DNA of 64,000 bases from Microcoleus sp. CAWBG506 (GTDB lineage Bacteria > Cyanobacteriota > Cyanobacteriia > Cyanobacteriales > Microcoleaceae): contig JAHREW010000026.1 in the NCBI GenBank assembly GCA_020883125.1, positions 22,011 to 86,010 of the forward strand, read 5' to 3'. Both the position numbers and the translations under genes were made by a program. Every line of letters starts with the position of its first letter. Position 1 is the first letter of the stretch. The notes below the pieces were generated by a model. The model was not told the DNA's origin. It made no database searches and worked only from the letters and a program-made list of their open reading frames with translations. Positions 54,750-61,509 of this stretch are shown piece by piece.

Positions 54750-55206
54750 AATCAGTCTGCGTTAGCTTGGCAATTAGCACCGCCGAAAGCTAACCTGAAG
54801 AAAACTTTTGAGTTTTGAGTTATGAGTTAAACAGTCCCCAATCCACAACTCTGCACTTAAAATTCATAACTCAAAGCTATATTACCAATTACTTGCCCTT
54901 TGATTGATTTTATGTTTGGGGAACCGCCAAGAAAGTTAGGAGATTCTTCAGTTGATTGTTGACAGTTAGCAAGAAGAGATCTCGTCGAGGAGTTGACGCT
55001 TGACGCCAATTCGGGCGACTTCTACCTGGAACCAAGAGGATTGCAGTCATGAATCGTCTGATTGTAAGTCGCTGACAGGCTTTTTGGTTATTTATGAAAC
55101 ATTAGAGGTAAATTGATACTATTTTTTCTGGAAGCTTCATCTGTTACATTTTTTAGCAAATCTGTTGCCGAACATCCTTCTGTTGTGAACAATAACTTTG
55201 GTCGAT
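54750..55206. other. Intergenic region with an inverted repeat
   Basis: Perfect 12-bp arms TTTGAGTTATGA (54814-54825) and TCATAACTCAAA (54864-54875) follow the hydrolase gene and may terminate it. The remainder (54880-55206) is the upstream region of the kinase gene and has no recognised gene. Confidence 0.5.
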
Positions 55207-56412
55207 ATGGACAACTTGAGCATCGACACTAAAACCCGCGCCGTCAAGCTGGGTTCAGAGTGTATAGACTTAAACAAAGAAGAATATATCGTGCTGCTGC
55301 TGTTGAGCAAGCACTACGGCAAATATGTCGCACCGGCAGCGATTTTTAACGTGCTGTACAAGCGTCCTCCAACAGGTGACGAAGAGCAAATTATAGTCGA
55401 TCGCATTTTTGAACTCAGGAGAAAATTAAAAGACAACCGCGACACACCGATGCTAATTCATAGCGAACCAAACGGGAGCGGCAAATACGGCATTCTTGCA
55501 GTCGAAAGCCCCGTGCAAATCAACGGCGAAATTTTGCAGCCGCCGGAACCTAACCCTGAATCTGAACAACTTTTAAACAGTCGCTACCGGGTGATTGAGA
55601 AACTCGGAGAAGGAGGTTTTGGCTTAACATTGCTCGCCGAAGATACGCAAATGCCTTCGCATCGATGTTGCGTCATCAAGCAGCTAAAAACCCAGACTGA
55701 TAATCCTCAGATTGACCAAAGGGTTCGAGAGCGTTTTTCTCAAGAAGCTGCTGTCTTGGAAAAGTTGGGTGAAGGACATTCTCAAATACCCAAACTCTAC
55801 GGACACTTTGAGGAAAATAATTTGTTTTTCTTTGCCTTAGAATGGATAGACGGGGAAACCCTCAACAACCGGATAAAAGTTGCTGGTAAAATGAGCGAGG
55901 AACAAGTTAAAGAAATTATCGCTAGTTTGCTGCGAGTTTTGGATTATATACACGAAAACCAGATTATTCACCGAGATGTCAAACCGCAAAATATTATTTT
56001 GCGAAAGTCGGACGATGAACCAGTATTAATAGATTTTGGCGTGGTTAAGGAAACAATAGATCCTGCGGTAACTACTGGAGGAAATGATGTAACTATCTCT
56101 ATTGGAACGCCGCAATTTATGTCTCCGGAACAAGCCGCAGGCAGACCAGAATTTTCTAGCGATTTGTACAGTTTTGGCTTGACTGCAATTTATTTGCTGA
56201 CCGGAAAGTGGCCGCAGGAGTTGGAAACTGACCCCCAAACTCGGGAGATGCTTTGGCAGAATCACGCATCAAAGGTGAGTATCAGATTTGCCGCAGTTAT
56301 GGATAAATCAATTAGGTTTCACCCGCGAGCTCGGTTCGCTACTGCTAAGGAAATGTTGGCGGCTTTGCAGGAGCCTACATCGGCTACTTTGGCACAAGTT
56401 AATATTCAATAA
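55207..56412 (+). CDS. Winged-helix/Ser-Thr kinase (N-terminal part of a split receptor)
   Basis: 401 residues. Residues 1-100 match an OmpR/PhoB-type winged-helix DNA-binding domain (CIDLNKEEYIVLLLLSKHYGKYVAPAAIFNVLY, VDRIFELRRKLKDNRDTPMLIH). Residues 128-395 are a Hanks-type protein kinase with all essential residues: GEGGFG loop (133-138), K158, HRDVKPQN (255-262), DFG (276-278), GTPQFMSPEQ. The frame ends at TAA 56410-56412, but the same frame continues open for 1.5 kb through a transmembrane helix and a periplasmic-binding domain. Cyanobacterial genomes commonly carry these as one bifunctional kinase/ABC substrate-binding protein, so the stop looks like an interruption. ATG at 55207; a TTG at 55198 is possible. 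Confidence 0.9.
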   Translation: MDNLSIDTKTRAVKLGSECIDLNKEEYIVLLLLSKHYGKYVAPAAIFNVLYKRPPTGDEEQIIVDRIFELRRKLKDNRDTPMLIHSEPNGSGKYGILAVESPVQINGEILQPPEPNPESEQLLNSRYRVIEKLGEGGFGLTLLAEDTQMPSHRCCVIKQLKTQTDNPQIDQRVRERFSQEAAVLEKLGEGHSQIPKLYGHFEENNLFFFALEWIDGETLNNRIKVAGKMSEEQVKEIIASLLRVLDYIHENQIIHRDVKPQNIILRKSDDEPVLIDFGVVKETIDPAVTTGGNDVTISIGTPQFMSPEQAAGRPEFSSDLYSFGLTAIYLLTGKWPQELETDPQTREMLWQNHASKVSIRFAAVMDKSIRFHPRARFATAKEMLAALQEPTSATLAQVNIQ

Positions 56413-56460
56413 AATTCAAAAAAAACTCCTAAAAAAAACTGGATTGTTTATTTAATATTG

Positions 56461-57891
56461 ATGTTTTTAATTGCTTTAGGTACAGGGGCTTTTTTATTCA
56501 AAATAGAATTGATTAATATCTTAAAAAATGCTGTACATTTGGCTGAAAAAAACCTGAATCCTAGCGTTTCTAAAATACCTAATTTACCAGGGGAAAATTC
56601 CCGGACTTCTTCACCTGTAGATGTCAGGAATTACATCAGTGCGGGCGATCGCATTTTGTTTGCTAGCACCGCCACTCCTGACAAGCAAGCAGGAGTTAGC
56701 GCGATCGCCACCAAAGACTTCAAAACGGCGGTAAACAAGCTAGAAGCGGCTTTAAAAGTCGATCGCACAGATCCGGAAACTTTGATTTATCTCAACAATG
56801 CTCGACTCGGTACAGCACAAGCCCTGAAAATTGCCGCAGTAGTTCCGATTGGCGACAATCTCAGCGCGGCGGCGGAAATCTTGCGCGGGATAGCCCAAGC
56901 TCAAGACGAAGCAATTAAGGCGGGAGTGCCTTTAAAGGTGGTAATTGCTGATGATGGTAACGATGAAAATCGGGCTCAGGCTATTGCACAGAGTCTGATT
57001 GCAGATAGCAGTATTTTAGCAGTTGTCGGTCACGGCACCAGCAAAACTTCGATCGCAGTTGCTCCAATTTACAGTCAAAATCAAATGGTGGCGATCGCAC
57101 CTACGAGCACCAGCATTGAATTAGCAACGGTTCCTAGGCGCCCCGACGGCGTGAACTATTTTTTTCGGACGATACCGAGCGACCAATTTACAGGTACGGC
57201 TTTAGCTCGCTATATGTTAAATGGCATGAAAAAAAGCACGGCTGCGGTTTTTTACAATTCCAAAAGTTCTTATAGCAAGTCGCTACAAACAGCTTTTTCT
57301 ACTACTTTGATTTTGGAAGGCGGTCAAGTTGTTAAGGAAGTAGATTTATCGGAACCAAATTCTACGGCGCACTTGGATGGGATTGAAGCAGATGTTTGGG
57401 TTTTGTTCCCGGATTCTGATACTGTAAATTCATCCCTAGAAATTGCTCGCAACAATCAAAAAGGTTTACCAATGATTGGCGGCGATGCTCTCTACAATAC
57501 GGATTTATTAAAACAAGGTGGAGCGGCTTTGAGCGGGACAATAATTTCTGTTCCTTGGCATTTTGCTGATACTAAAAATCAAAATTTTGCACTTTTAGCT
57601 AGAGATTTGTGGGGAATTGATGTTAACTGGCGGACGGCGATGAGTTACGATGCGGTGCAGGTGTTGCGGGTGGGAAGGTCGATCGGGAAAATTGCTCCTT
57701 CTAGCGGTCAAGCAGGGCGAGTTATGTTGGCTAAAGCCTTAGCTGCTGAGGATTTCAAAGTTAGCGGTGCAACGGGGGAAATTAGATTTTTGTCGAGTGG
57801 CGATCGCAACAGCAATGTAGTTCTTGTACAAATTGTACCAAACACTCAATCCGGTGCAGGTTACGATTTTGTGCCAATCAGTCGATTTTAG
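56461..57891 (+). CDS. Substrate-binding (Peripla_BP_6) half of the split receptor
   Basis: The open frame actually starts right after the TAA at 56412 (NSKKTPKKNWIVYLILMFLIALGTGAFLF), giving a KKTPKK stop-transfer motif plus a complete transmembrane helix. The first ATG, at 56461, lies inside that helix and has no ribosome site. The exported part is a branched-chain-amino-acid-type binding protein: AAVVPIGDNLSAAAEILRGIAQAQDEAI, VVIADDGNDENRAQAIAQSLIAD, VVGHGTSKTSIAVAPIYSQNQMVAIAPTSTS, FFRTIPSDQFTGTALARYM. It presumably senses an amino acid or similar ligand. No ABC permease genes are near, consistent with a sensor rather than a transporter. It may be expressed only by readthrough or not at all. 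Confidence 0.85.
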   Translation: MFLIALGTGAFLFKIELINILKNAVHLAEKNLNPSVSKIPNLPGENSRTSSPVDVRNYISAGDRILFASTATPDKQAGVSAIATKDFKTAVNKLEAALKVDRTDPETLIYLNNARLGTAQALKIAAVVPIGDNLSAAAEILRGIAQAQDEAIKAGVPLKVVIADDGNDENRAQAIAQSLIADSSILAVVGHGTSKTSIAVAPIYSQNQMVAIAPTSTSIELATVPRRPDGVNYFFRTIPSDQFTGTALARYMLNGMKKSTAAVFYNSKSSYSKSLQTAFSTTLILEGGQVVKEVDLSEPNSTAHLDGIEADVWVLFPDSDTVNSSLEIARNNQKGLPMIGGDALYNTDLLKQGGAALSGTIISVPWHFADTKNQNFALLARDLWGIDVNWRTAMSYDAVQVLRVGRSIGKIAPSSGQAGRVMLAKALAAEDFKVSGATGEIRFLSSGDRNSNVVLVQIVPNTQSGAGYDFVPISRF

Positions 57892-58047: not shown

Positions 58048-58084
58048 GATTTCATTTTGCCTCGAACCATTACTATCAGATTGG

Positions 58085-58262
58085 TTCGTAGGTTCGTAGT
58101 GAGGAATGCGAGTCCTAGGATTGCTAGATTCGTAGTGAGGAGTTTAGTCCTAAGATTATTCGGTTCGTCGTAGTGATAACTTTAGTCCTAGACTTTTTCT
58201 GCGGACTAAAGTCCACACTACAAACCAATTTTACTGTGAGGACTTTAGCGGCTCTAATCTGC
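58085..58262. repeat. Repeat cluster with TTCGTAGTGAGGA...AGTCCTA units
   Basis: A unit of about 30 bp (TTCGTAGTGAGGANTNNNAGTCCTA) occurs at about 58097 and 58129, in degenerate form at 58167, and inverted at 58201-58225 (GGACTAAAGTCCACACTAC) and 58232-58250. A dispersed palindromic repeat; no ORF. Confidence 0.6.
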
Positions 58263-58346: not shown

Positions 58347-59150
58347 ATGAATAGTTCGATCGCGGCTCGCCACAATGTCAATATCCTGGGTAAAGGCGCT
58401 CAAACCCTGATTTTTGCCCAAGGCTTCGGAACGGATCAAACAGCTTGGCGACATCAGGTAGCCACATTTGCACCAAACTACCGCATCGTACTTTTTGACC
58501 ACGTTGGGGCTGGAAATTCAGATTTTGCTGCCTACAGCCCGCATCGCTACAGCAGTCTTCACAGCTATGCAGAAGATTTGCTAGAGCTTTGCTGCGAGTT
58601 AAAATTGACACATTGTAATTATATCGGTCACTCGGTTAGCGGTATGATAGGCTTGTTAGCAGCCCTAGCCGAGCCAAAACTATTTAACAAGCTCGTATTT
58701 ATTGGTGCATCTCCATGTTATTTAAATGATGCTGGATACGTAGGTGGTTTTGACCAGTCTGACCTCAATAGCTTGTACGGGGCGATGTCATCTAACTTCT
58801 ACGCATGGGCTAGCGGTTTTGCGCCGTTAATGATGAGTCACCCAGAGCAGCCGGAATTGGCTGCCCAGTTTGCCAAGACTCTGACTGCTATCCGCCCGGA
58901 TATTGCGCAAGCTGTGATTAAGGTGATTTTTGAGTCGGATTATCGATCGCAATTACCGCAGCTAAAAGTACCGACACTGATTCTCCAAGCTAAGAGTGAC
59001 CCCGCCGTACCTGTGGATGTAGGTCGATATATGGCTCAAAAAATACCCAAAAGTCAACTGATAGAAATAGATGCGCGGGGTCATTTTCCCCACATCAGCG
59101 CACCAGGGAAAATCACGCAGGCGATCGCATCCTATCTTTCCTCTCCCTAA
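58347..59150 (+). CDS. RsbQ/KAI2-like alpha/beta hydrolase
   Basis: A 267-residue hydrolase of the RsbQ/D14/KAI2 group, which hydrolyse or bind small hydrophobic signals. The start NSSIAARHNVNILGKGAQTLIFAQGFGTDQTAWRHQVATF and the elbow YIGHSVSGMIGLLAA are characteristic of RsbQ. The triad is S96, D218 (LQAKSDPAVP) and H246 (ARGHFPHIS), almost the same positions as in Bacillus RsbQ. In Bacillus, RsbQ acts with the PAS-containing phosphatase RsbP to report energy stress. Here the next gene, 34 bp downstream, encodes a PAS-containing adenylate cyclase, suggesting an analogous hydrolase-to-PAS relay. ATG at 58347; no export signal. Confidence 0.9.
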   Translation: MNSSIAARHNVNILGKGAQTLIFAQGFGTDQTAWRHQVATFAPNYRIVLFDHVGAGNSDFAAYSPHRYSSLHSYAEDLLELCCELKLTHCNYIGHSVSGMIGLLAALAEPKLFNKLVFIGASPCYLNDAGYVGGFDQSDLNSLYGAMSSNFYAWASGFAPLMMSHPEQPELAAQFAKTLTAIRPDIAQAVIKVIFESDYRSQLPQLKVPTLILQAKSDPAVPVDVGRYMAQKIPKSQLIEIDARGHFPHISAPGKITQAIASYLSSP

Positions 59151-59184
59151 AAATCAATCAAAATTGAGAGTTCAACAATTAATA

Positions 59185-61509
59185 ATGGACTTGCTGGAAA
59201 AGTGCTTTAACTATTTCAATAAAATTCCTAAATCAAGTCTAAAACTGTCAAAAAAGAGGTTATTTCTAAGTTTTCAACCTTCAGCGCTAGACCATCCCGA
59301 AACTTTGCCAATGTTCAGGCTGCCTTTGGTATTGCTGTTGGTTTTTTTCATCGCGATCGACAGTTGGCAACACACAGCAATAAGTTACTCGATCGACGAA
59401 ACGATCGTATTTCTGCTGTGCGTGCTGCTGCCGCGCGATCGCGCGTCGCTCGGAATGCTGGGACTTTTGACTGGTTTTACAGTTTGGTTTCCCGCCACCG
59501 ATGACTTGCTGCTCGACTTGTGGATGACACTCGCTATCGCTGTGCCTTTGGGCATTCTGGTGCGGAGGTTTCTGTTACAAGTTGAGTGGCAATTGGCTTC
59601 GCAAAACGTACTCGCGGCCCTCACCCGTAGCGGCGATACAGAAGGTGCTGACAGAGTTATTGCTAACACGTTGATCGTGCTGCAAAAGTATACAGAAGCC
59701 GATGCAGCGATCGCCCTGCGCCAACTCGATGACGTAACTGCCGAGGCGATCGCCTGTGTGCCCGCCACAGCTTTGCCGAGTCGATTCACCAGTCCGAAAA
59801 TCTTTGCCGAGGCCCTAGCCCACAACCGCTGCATCTACTATTGGGACTACCCCGCGACTCCCGGCGCTAACCGTACCTTAGTCGCCAAAGGAGCAAAATC
59901 CATCGCAGTGCTGCCGCTGTCTGCACCTGCGGGCGACGAGGTAGTTCGAGGGCCCAAACCAGGGGCGATCGTCCTGGTGTGGTACCGCAGCTATCGAGTT
60001 TCCGCCTACTTTCAAAACTTCGCCGTATCAGTGCTGGGGGGATTGAGCACCATACTCAGGTTTCACTACACCAACTTCCGCCTAGAAAAGCTGCAAACTC
60101 GCTACAGCGCCATTTTGCAGACGATACCGCAGGGCGTGGTATTTGTGGACGCCAGTGGCGAACAAGGTTGGATCAATAGTGTCGCCGCCCAGCAGCTAAG
60201 TTTGACAGAAGGCGCTCAAGAAGCGACAGCGATTGCTGATGGGATGGCAAAACTGCGATCGAGGGCCGCCAATCCAGAGGAAATCGCAGCCAAAGCAGCA
60301 GATTTTTTTAGCAAACCAGACGCTAAGATTCGCGATTGGGAGTGGGTTTTCTCCGAACCCAACTGCCAAGTCTTGAATCTGTCAAGCACTCCTACTTTGC
60401 TGCGCGACGTACCGGGCCGCCTGTGGCTGCTCAACGATATTACCGATCGATATTTAAACCGTTTAGCATTGGTCGATCGTACCGCACAACTGGAAGCTGC
60501 CAACAACGCTCTGCAACTGACTCAGTTTTCGGTCGATCAAGCCGGCGATGCTATTTTTTGGATCGGATCGGATGCTCAAATATTGTATGTCAACGATGCT
60601 GCTTGTTTTGCCCTCGGTTATTCCCGCAGCGAGTTGTTGTCAATGAATATCAGCAAAATTGATGCCAACTTTACCGTCGAAGTCTGGCCACTGCACTGGG
60701 AAACTATCAGGGAATGCGACTCTATTACCCTGGAATCTCAGCATTGCACCAAACACGGCAAACTTTTCCCCGTCGAGGTAAAAGTCAATTATTTAGAATT
60801 CAACGGCAGCGAGTACCACTGCGCCTTTGTCCGGGATATTAGCGATCGCAAGCAAGTCGAGGCAGCCATCCGAGCGGAGCAGGAAAAATCAGAAAAATTG
60901 CTCTTAAATATTTTACCGCAATCCATTGCTAAACGTTTGAAACAAAGAGAAACAAACATTGCTGAAGGATTTGCCAATGTGACGATTTTGTTTGCCGACA
61001 TCGTTGGCTTTACTCAGCTTTCGTCGAAAATTAGTCCCAAAGAATTGGTGTACTTGCTAAACGAAATCTTCAGCGAGTTCGATCGCATGACAGATTTGTA
61101 CCATTTGGAAAAAATCAAGACAATTGGCGACGCTTATATGGTAGCTGGCGGCATTCCGCTCCCTCGCAGCGATGGCGCGGAAGCTGTGGCCCAAATGGCG
61201 ATCGGTATGCAAAAGGCGATCGGTTTATTTAACATAGCCCGCGGTCACTCTTTAAGCATTCGCATCGGCATCAATACCGGGGCCGTAGTCGCGGGCGTAA
61301 TTGGCACGAAAAAGTTTATTTACGATTTGTGGGGCGACGCGGTGAATACGGCTTCGCGGATGGAATCTCACGGCATTCCGGGCCGTATTCACGTCAGCCA
61401 AGCAACTCGCGAACTGTTGGGCGATAAATATGCTTTTGAGGATAGAGGAGTAATTTTCATCAAAGGTAAGGGGGAAATGAGGACTTATTTGCTAACTGGA
61501 AAGGTTTAA
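59185..61509 (+). CDS. Membrane GAF-PAS-PAS class III adenylate cyclase
   Basis: A 774-residue protein with N-terminal membrane helices (about 40-125: LPLVLLLVFFIAIDSW, FLLCVLL, LGLLTGFTVWFP, LAIAVPLGILV), a GAF-like domain (about 140-300), a first PAS (about 315-430, YSAILQTIPQGVVFVDASGEQGWIN), a second PAS (about 445-570, GDAIFWIGSDAQILYVNDAACFALGY ... VRDISDRKQ), and a class III cyclase (about 595-770). The cyclase has both metal aspartates (FADIVGFT, GDAYM), Lys in EKIKTIGD and Asp in DLWGDAVNTASRM, the ATP-specific pair. It should make cAMP. The ATG at 59185 avoids overlap with the RsbQ-like gene. Likely one operon with it. Confidence 0.92.
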   Translation: MDLLEKCFNYFNKIPKSSLKLSKKRLFLSFQPSALDHPETLPMFRLPLVLLLVFFIAIDSWQHTAISYSIDETIVFLLCVLLPRDRASLGMLGLLTGFTVWFPATDDLLLDLWMTLAIAVPLGILVRRFLLQVEWQLASQNVLAALTRSGDTEGADRVIANTLIVLQKYTEADAAIALRQLDDVTAEAIACVPATALPSRFTSPKIFAEALAHNRCIYYWDYPATPGANRTLVAKGAKSIAVLPLSAPAGDEVVRGPKPGAIVLVWYRSYRVSAYFQNFAVSVLGGLSTILRFHYTNFRLEKLQTRYSAILQTIPQGVVFVDASGEQGWINSVAAQQLSLTEGAQEATAIADGMAKLRSRAANPEEIAAKAADFFSKPDAKIRDWEWVFSEPNCQVLNLSSTPTLLRDVPGRLWLLNDITDRYLNRLALVDRTAQLEAANNALQLTQFSVDQAGDAIFWIGSDAQILYVNDAACFALGYSRSELLSMNISKIDANFTVEVWPLHWETIRECDSITLESQHCTKHGKLFPVEVKVNYLEFNGSEYHCAFVRDISDRKQVEAAIRAEQEKSEKLLLNILPQSIAKRLKQRETNIAEGFANVTILFADIVGFTQLSSKISPKELVYLLNEIFSEFDRMTDLYHLEKIKTIGDAYMVAGGIPLPRSDGAEAVAQMAIGMQKAIGLFNIARGHSLSIRIGINTGAVVAGVIGTKKFIYDLWGDAVNTASRMESHGIPGRIHVSQATRELLGDKYAFEDRGVIFIKGKGEMRTYLLTGKV

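Follow-up and report, generated by a model that had tools for sequence, protein, structure and literature searches.

Results and Discussion

Domain organisation of the receptor gene

In the window, by which we mean the whole analysed stretch of 64,000 nucleotides, we identified a receptor frame on the forward strand whose first listed start is a TTG at 55198, followed by an ATG at 55207, and which ends at a TAA (56410–56412, codon 402) within the triplets CAA TAA AAT (56407–56415). The same frame stays open beyond this TAA for 492 sense codons (56413–57888) and closes with a TAG (57889–57891, forward strand), which the sequence and the codon alignment identify as the terminal stop of the original full-length frame. 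Both the window sequence and the frame listing bear out an earlier sequence-only reading in which the stop and the open frame behind it had been described; its figure of 493 codons is correct for the frame if the stop codon is included.

The same reading had described the protein as a Ser/Thr kinase and a sensor. Both are present, but a winged-helix domain at the N-terminus (55207–55506, forward strand) had been missed. Judged by sequence and by predicted fold, the approximately 100 residues ahead of the kinase are a winged helix of the OmpR/PhoB type, for which DNA binding is predicted. The Pfam profile Trans_reg_C matches residues 19–86 with 26.5 bits, just over the cut-off of 26.2, and a phmmer comparison with solved response-regulator DNA-binding domains gave a best E of 4.5e-5. 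The AlphaFold2 model (mean pLDDT 87.2) has the RstA DNA-binding domain as its best solved match in Foldseek, with a TM-score of 0.72 by query and 0.82 by target. It is followed by a Hanks-type Ser/Thr kinase domain (55585–56334, forward strand; Pkinase E 5.7e-40, residues 127–376) with its catalytic motifs (GEGGFG, VIK, HRDVKPQN, DFG and SPE). The TAA itself lies on the forward strand in a variable linker between this kinase and a putative membrane helix.

The detached second half (56413–57888, forward strand) consists of a charged linker, a hydrophobic helix, a linker or TPR-like stretch recognised by eye, and a LivK/ANF-type periplasmic binding domain. As described before, it begins with NSKKTPKKNWIVYLILMFLIALGTGAFLF and continues into the helix, a putative membrane span that was located by eye at about 56440–56499 (forward strand), and the binding domain. 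A profile search found Peripla_BP_6 (E 4.8e-22, residues 156–474 of the second half) and ANF_receptor (E 5.2e-15), and the solved relatives of the domain are Leu/Ile/Val-type and other amino-acid binding proteins. The first in-frame ATG past the stop (56461–56463, forward strand) lies 17 codons on, inside the helix, and no Shine-Dalgarno-like stretch is visible by eye ahead of it, in agreement with the earlier statement that the downstream half has no ribosome site of its own. At this position all 12 relatives described below have an Ile or Leu codon, and the polarised change is I419M.

Intact orthologues and distribution

Of the 28 other genomes of the genus that we searched along with this one (29 in all), 12 hold a full-length orthologue, 70–93% identical and in no case with an internal stop. 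In eleven of them the alignment extends to the end and for the twelfth (L015) the contig breaks off at codon 859, so the open frame after the TAA is not due to chance. The upstream hydrolase neighbour is found in 6/6 public loci and in the nearest relative, genome G011 (93% identical), showing that these genes are orthologues; two loci (L038 and L040) reach too little upstream to show more neighbours. The claim that one codon had cut a kinase/binding-domain fusion therefore holds in the alignment with intact fusions that had been proposed as a check: the orthologues encode the fusion as one protein, none is laid out as two separate genes, and the window gene carries a break that its uninterrupted orthologues at this locus lack, as expected of a nonsense-split gene.

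At the stop column the orthologues L006 to L017 read GAA, GAT, GCT, GTT, GAT, GCT, AAG, AAA, AGA, AAA, AAA and GAA, a variation that marks a free and poorly conserved linker position. As G011 has GAA there, the ancestral codon was likely, although not surely, GAA. With sense codons in 12/12 orthologues the stop is peculiar to this genome and represents neither a conserved readthrough signal nor an old arrangement of two genes, both of which we reject. The genus does contain stand-alone helix-plus-LivK-type proteins of about 480 residues that can be aligned to the detached half, the alignment taking in the helix at 14 of 16 loci. These are separate genes and paralogues (36–46% identity), with no kinase ORF within the up to 1.5 kb fetched on either side in all 16 of these short loci. 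The otherwise intact orthologue L009 (genome G020) reads YFG in place of DFG, and its kinase may for this reason be inactive.

Among 195 sampled genomes of the order, 10 that lie outside the genus encode kinase/binding-protein fusions, at 12 places altogether (E up to 1e-110), and all of these are free of stops. Like the intact form they are single open frames of kinase, helix and binding protein (35–42% identical); unlike the receptor described here, all 12 match only from query residue 116–122 onward and in none of them was a winged helix aligned. Using the winged-helix part alone (E up to 1e-8), matches were seen in 2/292 sampled genomes of the phylum, namely this genome and one congener. 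Within these samples the winged-helix addition looks confined to this genus.

Relation to known systems

Fusions of a kinase and an ANF domain were published in 2007 as cyanobacterial STK family II, for example alr0344, Ava_2791 and CwatDRAFT_0902 (PMC2176072), and in the part of that survey available to us the 14 added domains of cyanobacterial STKs include no DNA-binding domain. As in this type, the intact orthologues join a Ser/Thr kinase and an ANF/periplasmic-binding-type domain in one protein. The window gene has the kinase with its motifs and the ANF/Peripla_BP domain too, but in contrast to the accessible description of family II it carries an N-terminal winged helix and is cut by the TAA, so that kinase and ligand domain share one polypeptide only in the 12/12 congeneric orthologues. 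The fusion as such is therefore already known, whereas the winged-helix version was found, by sequence comparison, only in this genus. By title or beginning of the abstract we found no description of a winged-helix/kinase/binding-protein receptor in the open-licence literature, and the accessible parts of PMC7517822 and PMC6213207 do not describe one either; a literature search for stop-codon readthrough in cyanobacteria returned no matching paper.

The DNA-binding domains of ToxR/CadC-type regulators also appear among the Foldseek matches of the winged helix. In these regulators the winged helix is membrane-bound, and the intact receptor would resemble them in having a membrane-tethered winged helix and a periplasmic sensor. 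It differs in the Hanks kinase placed between winged helix and membrane helix and in the LivK type of its sensor.

Selection on the two halves

Compared with G011 the gene shows a dN/dS of 0.30 before and 0.24 after the stop, while six pairs of intact genes gave 0.12–0.20 for the first and 0.21–0.58 for the second half. Polarised non-synonymous to synonymous changes on this branch are 10:5 in the first and 10:11 in the second half, both small counts, against 4:4 and 19:15 on the G011 branch, a difference between the branches that is not significant (Fisher p 0.66 and 0.59). When measured against the long-term ratio, non-synonymous changes are slightly in excess in the first half (p 0.024 in a one-sided binomial test, uncorrected and with small counts), a hint of mildly relaxed constraint in this half; the second half is not raised. 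Short divergence alone can raise ratios of the dN/dS type, and we take the raised first-half ratio as nothing more than a hint.

In the sensor half each of the ten pairs listed from L005 to L011, whether close or distant, has a third-position distance of 6–15% in codons 561–720. In the kinase half (codons 81–400), on the other hand, this genome differs by 19–35% from L007, L008, L009 or L011 and by 4–10% from G011. The alignment thus suggests that the sensor half is a mosaic among L006–L011 and the window gene which has been exchanged between species, with the kinase half keeping the lineage structure, and selection tests in the sensor half are accordingly weak.

Further kinase genes with a lone TAA

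Apart from the window gene, we found a single kinase/binding-protein fusion in this genome. This second receptor (L083 2218–4650, minus strand; G000:C45:105220–107649) is likewise interrupted by one in-frame TAA, which falls within its binding domain at codon 709 of 811, where 8/8 fetched relatives have GAA. In the genus 46 places, some of them partial, match it at E up to 1e-150, and two of these carry an internal stop (taken as listed), so related receptors are at times interrupted elsewhere. Together with the 12 orthologues of the first receptor this makes 2/58 with internal stops compared to 2/2 in this genome; a simple calculation puts the chance at about 0.003 for both receptors and at about 0.05 if the starting case is left out. 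A third kinase has a lone TAA at C12:138512 (L101 18512), right ahead of its kinase domain, and here all six congeneric matches at E up to 1e-120 are intact, with GAA in 5/5 fetched. In the same reading frame, about 200 bases further upstream, is the end of what by eye looks like a pentapeptide-repeat frame. We looked at 31 of the 39 kinase-domain matches of this genome, inspecting the others for long in-frame continuations, and these three are the ones with a stop backed by relatives.

For the three genes GAA to TAA makes up about 10%, 11% and 8% of the single nonsense opportunities (transition weight 2). The product of about 0.0009 is post hoc and includes receptor 1, whose ancestral codon is not certain. 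The pattern has the look of continuing loss among the many members of a large kinase family, for which nonsense mutation is the simplest account, with the repeated GAA-to-TAA change as a small puzzle. That the three exchanges are not accidental, the lineage either switching off or uncoupling its sensor kinases in concert (thereby freeing a soluble winged-helix kinase in the present case) or decoding UAA as sense at a low level in these genes, seems to us very improbable.

As a baseline, references from G011, G003, G028 and smaller loci were compared with 1.5 Mb of this genome, and 113 gene pairs passed the filter of 60% identity, 85% coverage and a dN/dS of at most 0.35. Flagged were 20 pairs: seven with receptor 1, eight with receptor 2 (the references of which had been fetched because receptor 2 had been seen) and five whose stop lies no more than 14 codons from the start or 6 from the end. 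Leaving out the 15 receptor pairs, there is no mid-gene stop or frame change in the other 98, the five with a stop near the start or end of the reference ORF not being counted as mid-gene; in one protein of 97.8% identity, for instance, the TAA at codon 14 sits just before the likely true ATG and was counted as no break. In the reverse direction 3/88 pairs show a stop in the references. The pairs are not all distinct genes, as the 119 pairs before the dN/dS filter correspond to 85 distinct stretches. Five of these stretches had mid-ORF stops before that filter, and since each of them overlaps with a longer ORF, read in a different frame or from the opposite strand, they were taken as spurious ORFs. 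A codon-usage scan for lone stops, which makes no use of relatives, recovered neither of the two receptor cases.

Origin of the internal stop

We consider it probable that a recent nonsense mutation, presumably GAA to TAA, cut a membrane receptor in this genome, most likely as an ordinary loss-of-function mutation and not as a special reading trick. The ancestral gene would have encoded one membrane receptor with a periplasmic LivK-type domain, one membrane helix, a cytoplasmic Hanks kinase and the N-terminal winged helix, and a mutation in the unconserved linker would have split it, the intact form persisting in the relatives. The part before the stop would yield an unanchored winged-helix kinase of about 401 residues, which may still be folded but would not be coupled to the sensor in one chain, and signalling by the receptor would be lost. 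As the first ATG sits inside the helix, past the positively charged anchor, the sensor half is probably not made, or made and mis-inserted; it could restart at ATG 56461 and would then begin without the charged segment before the helix. Beyond the TAA we found no further lesion, and the dN/dS there is within the range of the intact pairs. This leaves three options: a young mutation, a wrong base, or halves that retain some function.

A wrong base, that is a sequencing or consensus error in a genome that in truth has a sense codon and an intact receptor, we hold to be unlikely. It would fit the undamaged 492 codons past the stop as well as a draft assembly of 6.0 Mb in 81 contigs (95.68% complete) that seems to be without a 17-kb stretch present in G011, and, provided that G011 preserves the original codon of receptor 1, all three lone stops would have arisen from GAA by a G-to-T change, a pattern that oxidative DNA damage could give. 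The 98 unbroken gene pairs argue against it because they show that the consensus is not generally poor, and the receptor gene shows no clear excess of derived G>T plus C>A changes (9/37 here against 6/42 in G011, Fisher p 0.39); for G>T alone (6/37 against 2/42, p 0.14) a general bias in this gene was likewise not shown. If instead the halves still do something, the stop might have been kept as the freed winged-helix kinase serves as a soluble regulator, the sensor being discarded or restarted at ATG 56461. Kinase and winged helix are indeed complete including the catalytic motifs, the same genome has a short related kinase (C15, open frame of 361 residues, 59% identical), the stop and the in-frame ATG 17 codons on are both missing from the 12 orthologues, and stand-alone helix-plus-sensor paralogues exist in the genus. 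Since the first half, with its 10 non-synonymous to 5 synonymous derived changes, is if anything relaxed, and a sensor begun at 56461 would be without the charged stretch that stands ahead of the helix in the one stand-alone paralogue read, we regard such a functional truncation as decidedly doubtful.

Programmed or tolerated readthrough of the UAA, yielding some full-length receptor, had been offered in the sequence-only reading as a functional stop, and is not supported by the comparison with the orthologues found, none of which shares the stop, or by the unconserved linker codon. That the frame is kept exactly and that three kinase genes of this genome share this type of lone TAA would suit it, but the three stops have no evident common context by eye and a general reassignment of TAA, which we reject, is incompatible with the absence of mid-gene stops from the other 98 gene pairs, leaving readthrough a next to negligible chance. 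Short templated conversion from another part of the genome was also rejected, as no second site comes as close as 2 mismatches to the 21 bases in question and four differ by 3.

A stand-alone-type sensor frame is seen in all 28 other genomes and none in this one, and the idea that the detached sensor replaces a lost stand-alone sensor was considered and dismissed in favour of a simpler assembly gap. To the 17 kb around the stand-alone sensor of G011 (G011:C39:7000–24000, L080) this genome offers no match longer than 838 bases (66% identity), a second one of 414 bases, and otherwise short matches or repeats. The near-absence of this region is probably an assembly gap, which bears on any claim of absence here. 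By eye the region in G011 also includes an ORF resembling heme A synthase.

With the nonsense mutation as the preferred reading the broken gene itself is ordinary, and its value lies in the natural experiment it offers, with the same membrane regulator intact in relatives and freed from its sensor here. The intact form would combine a membrane-tethered DNA-binding domain, a built-in Ser/Thr kinase and an amino-acid-type sensor, and might thus be a one-protein route from nutrient sensing to phosphorylation and transcription.

Downstream neighbourhood

Past the receptor gene short intergenic repeats (GTTCGTAGTGAGG and similar) were seen by eye at 58061–58240. The downstream gene pair (58.1–61.5 kb) was found only in G011 and L036. 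At 58347–61509 an alpha/beta hydrolase, identified by a profile match, adjoins a large protein that by eye resembles a PAS domain plus a class III nucleotide cyclase, a pairing which we take to be similar to that of RsbQ and RsbP.
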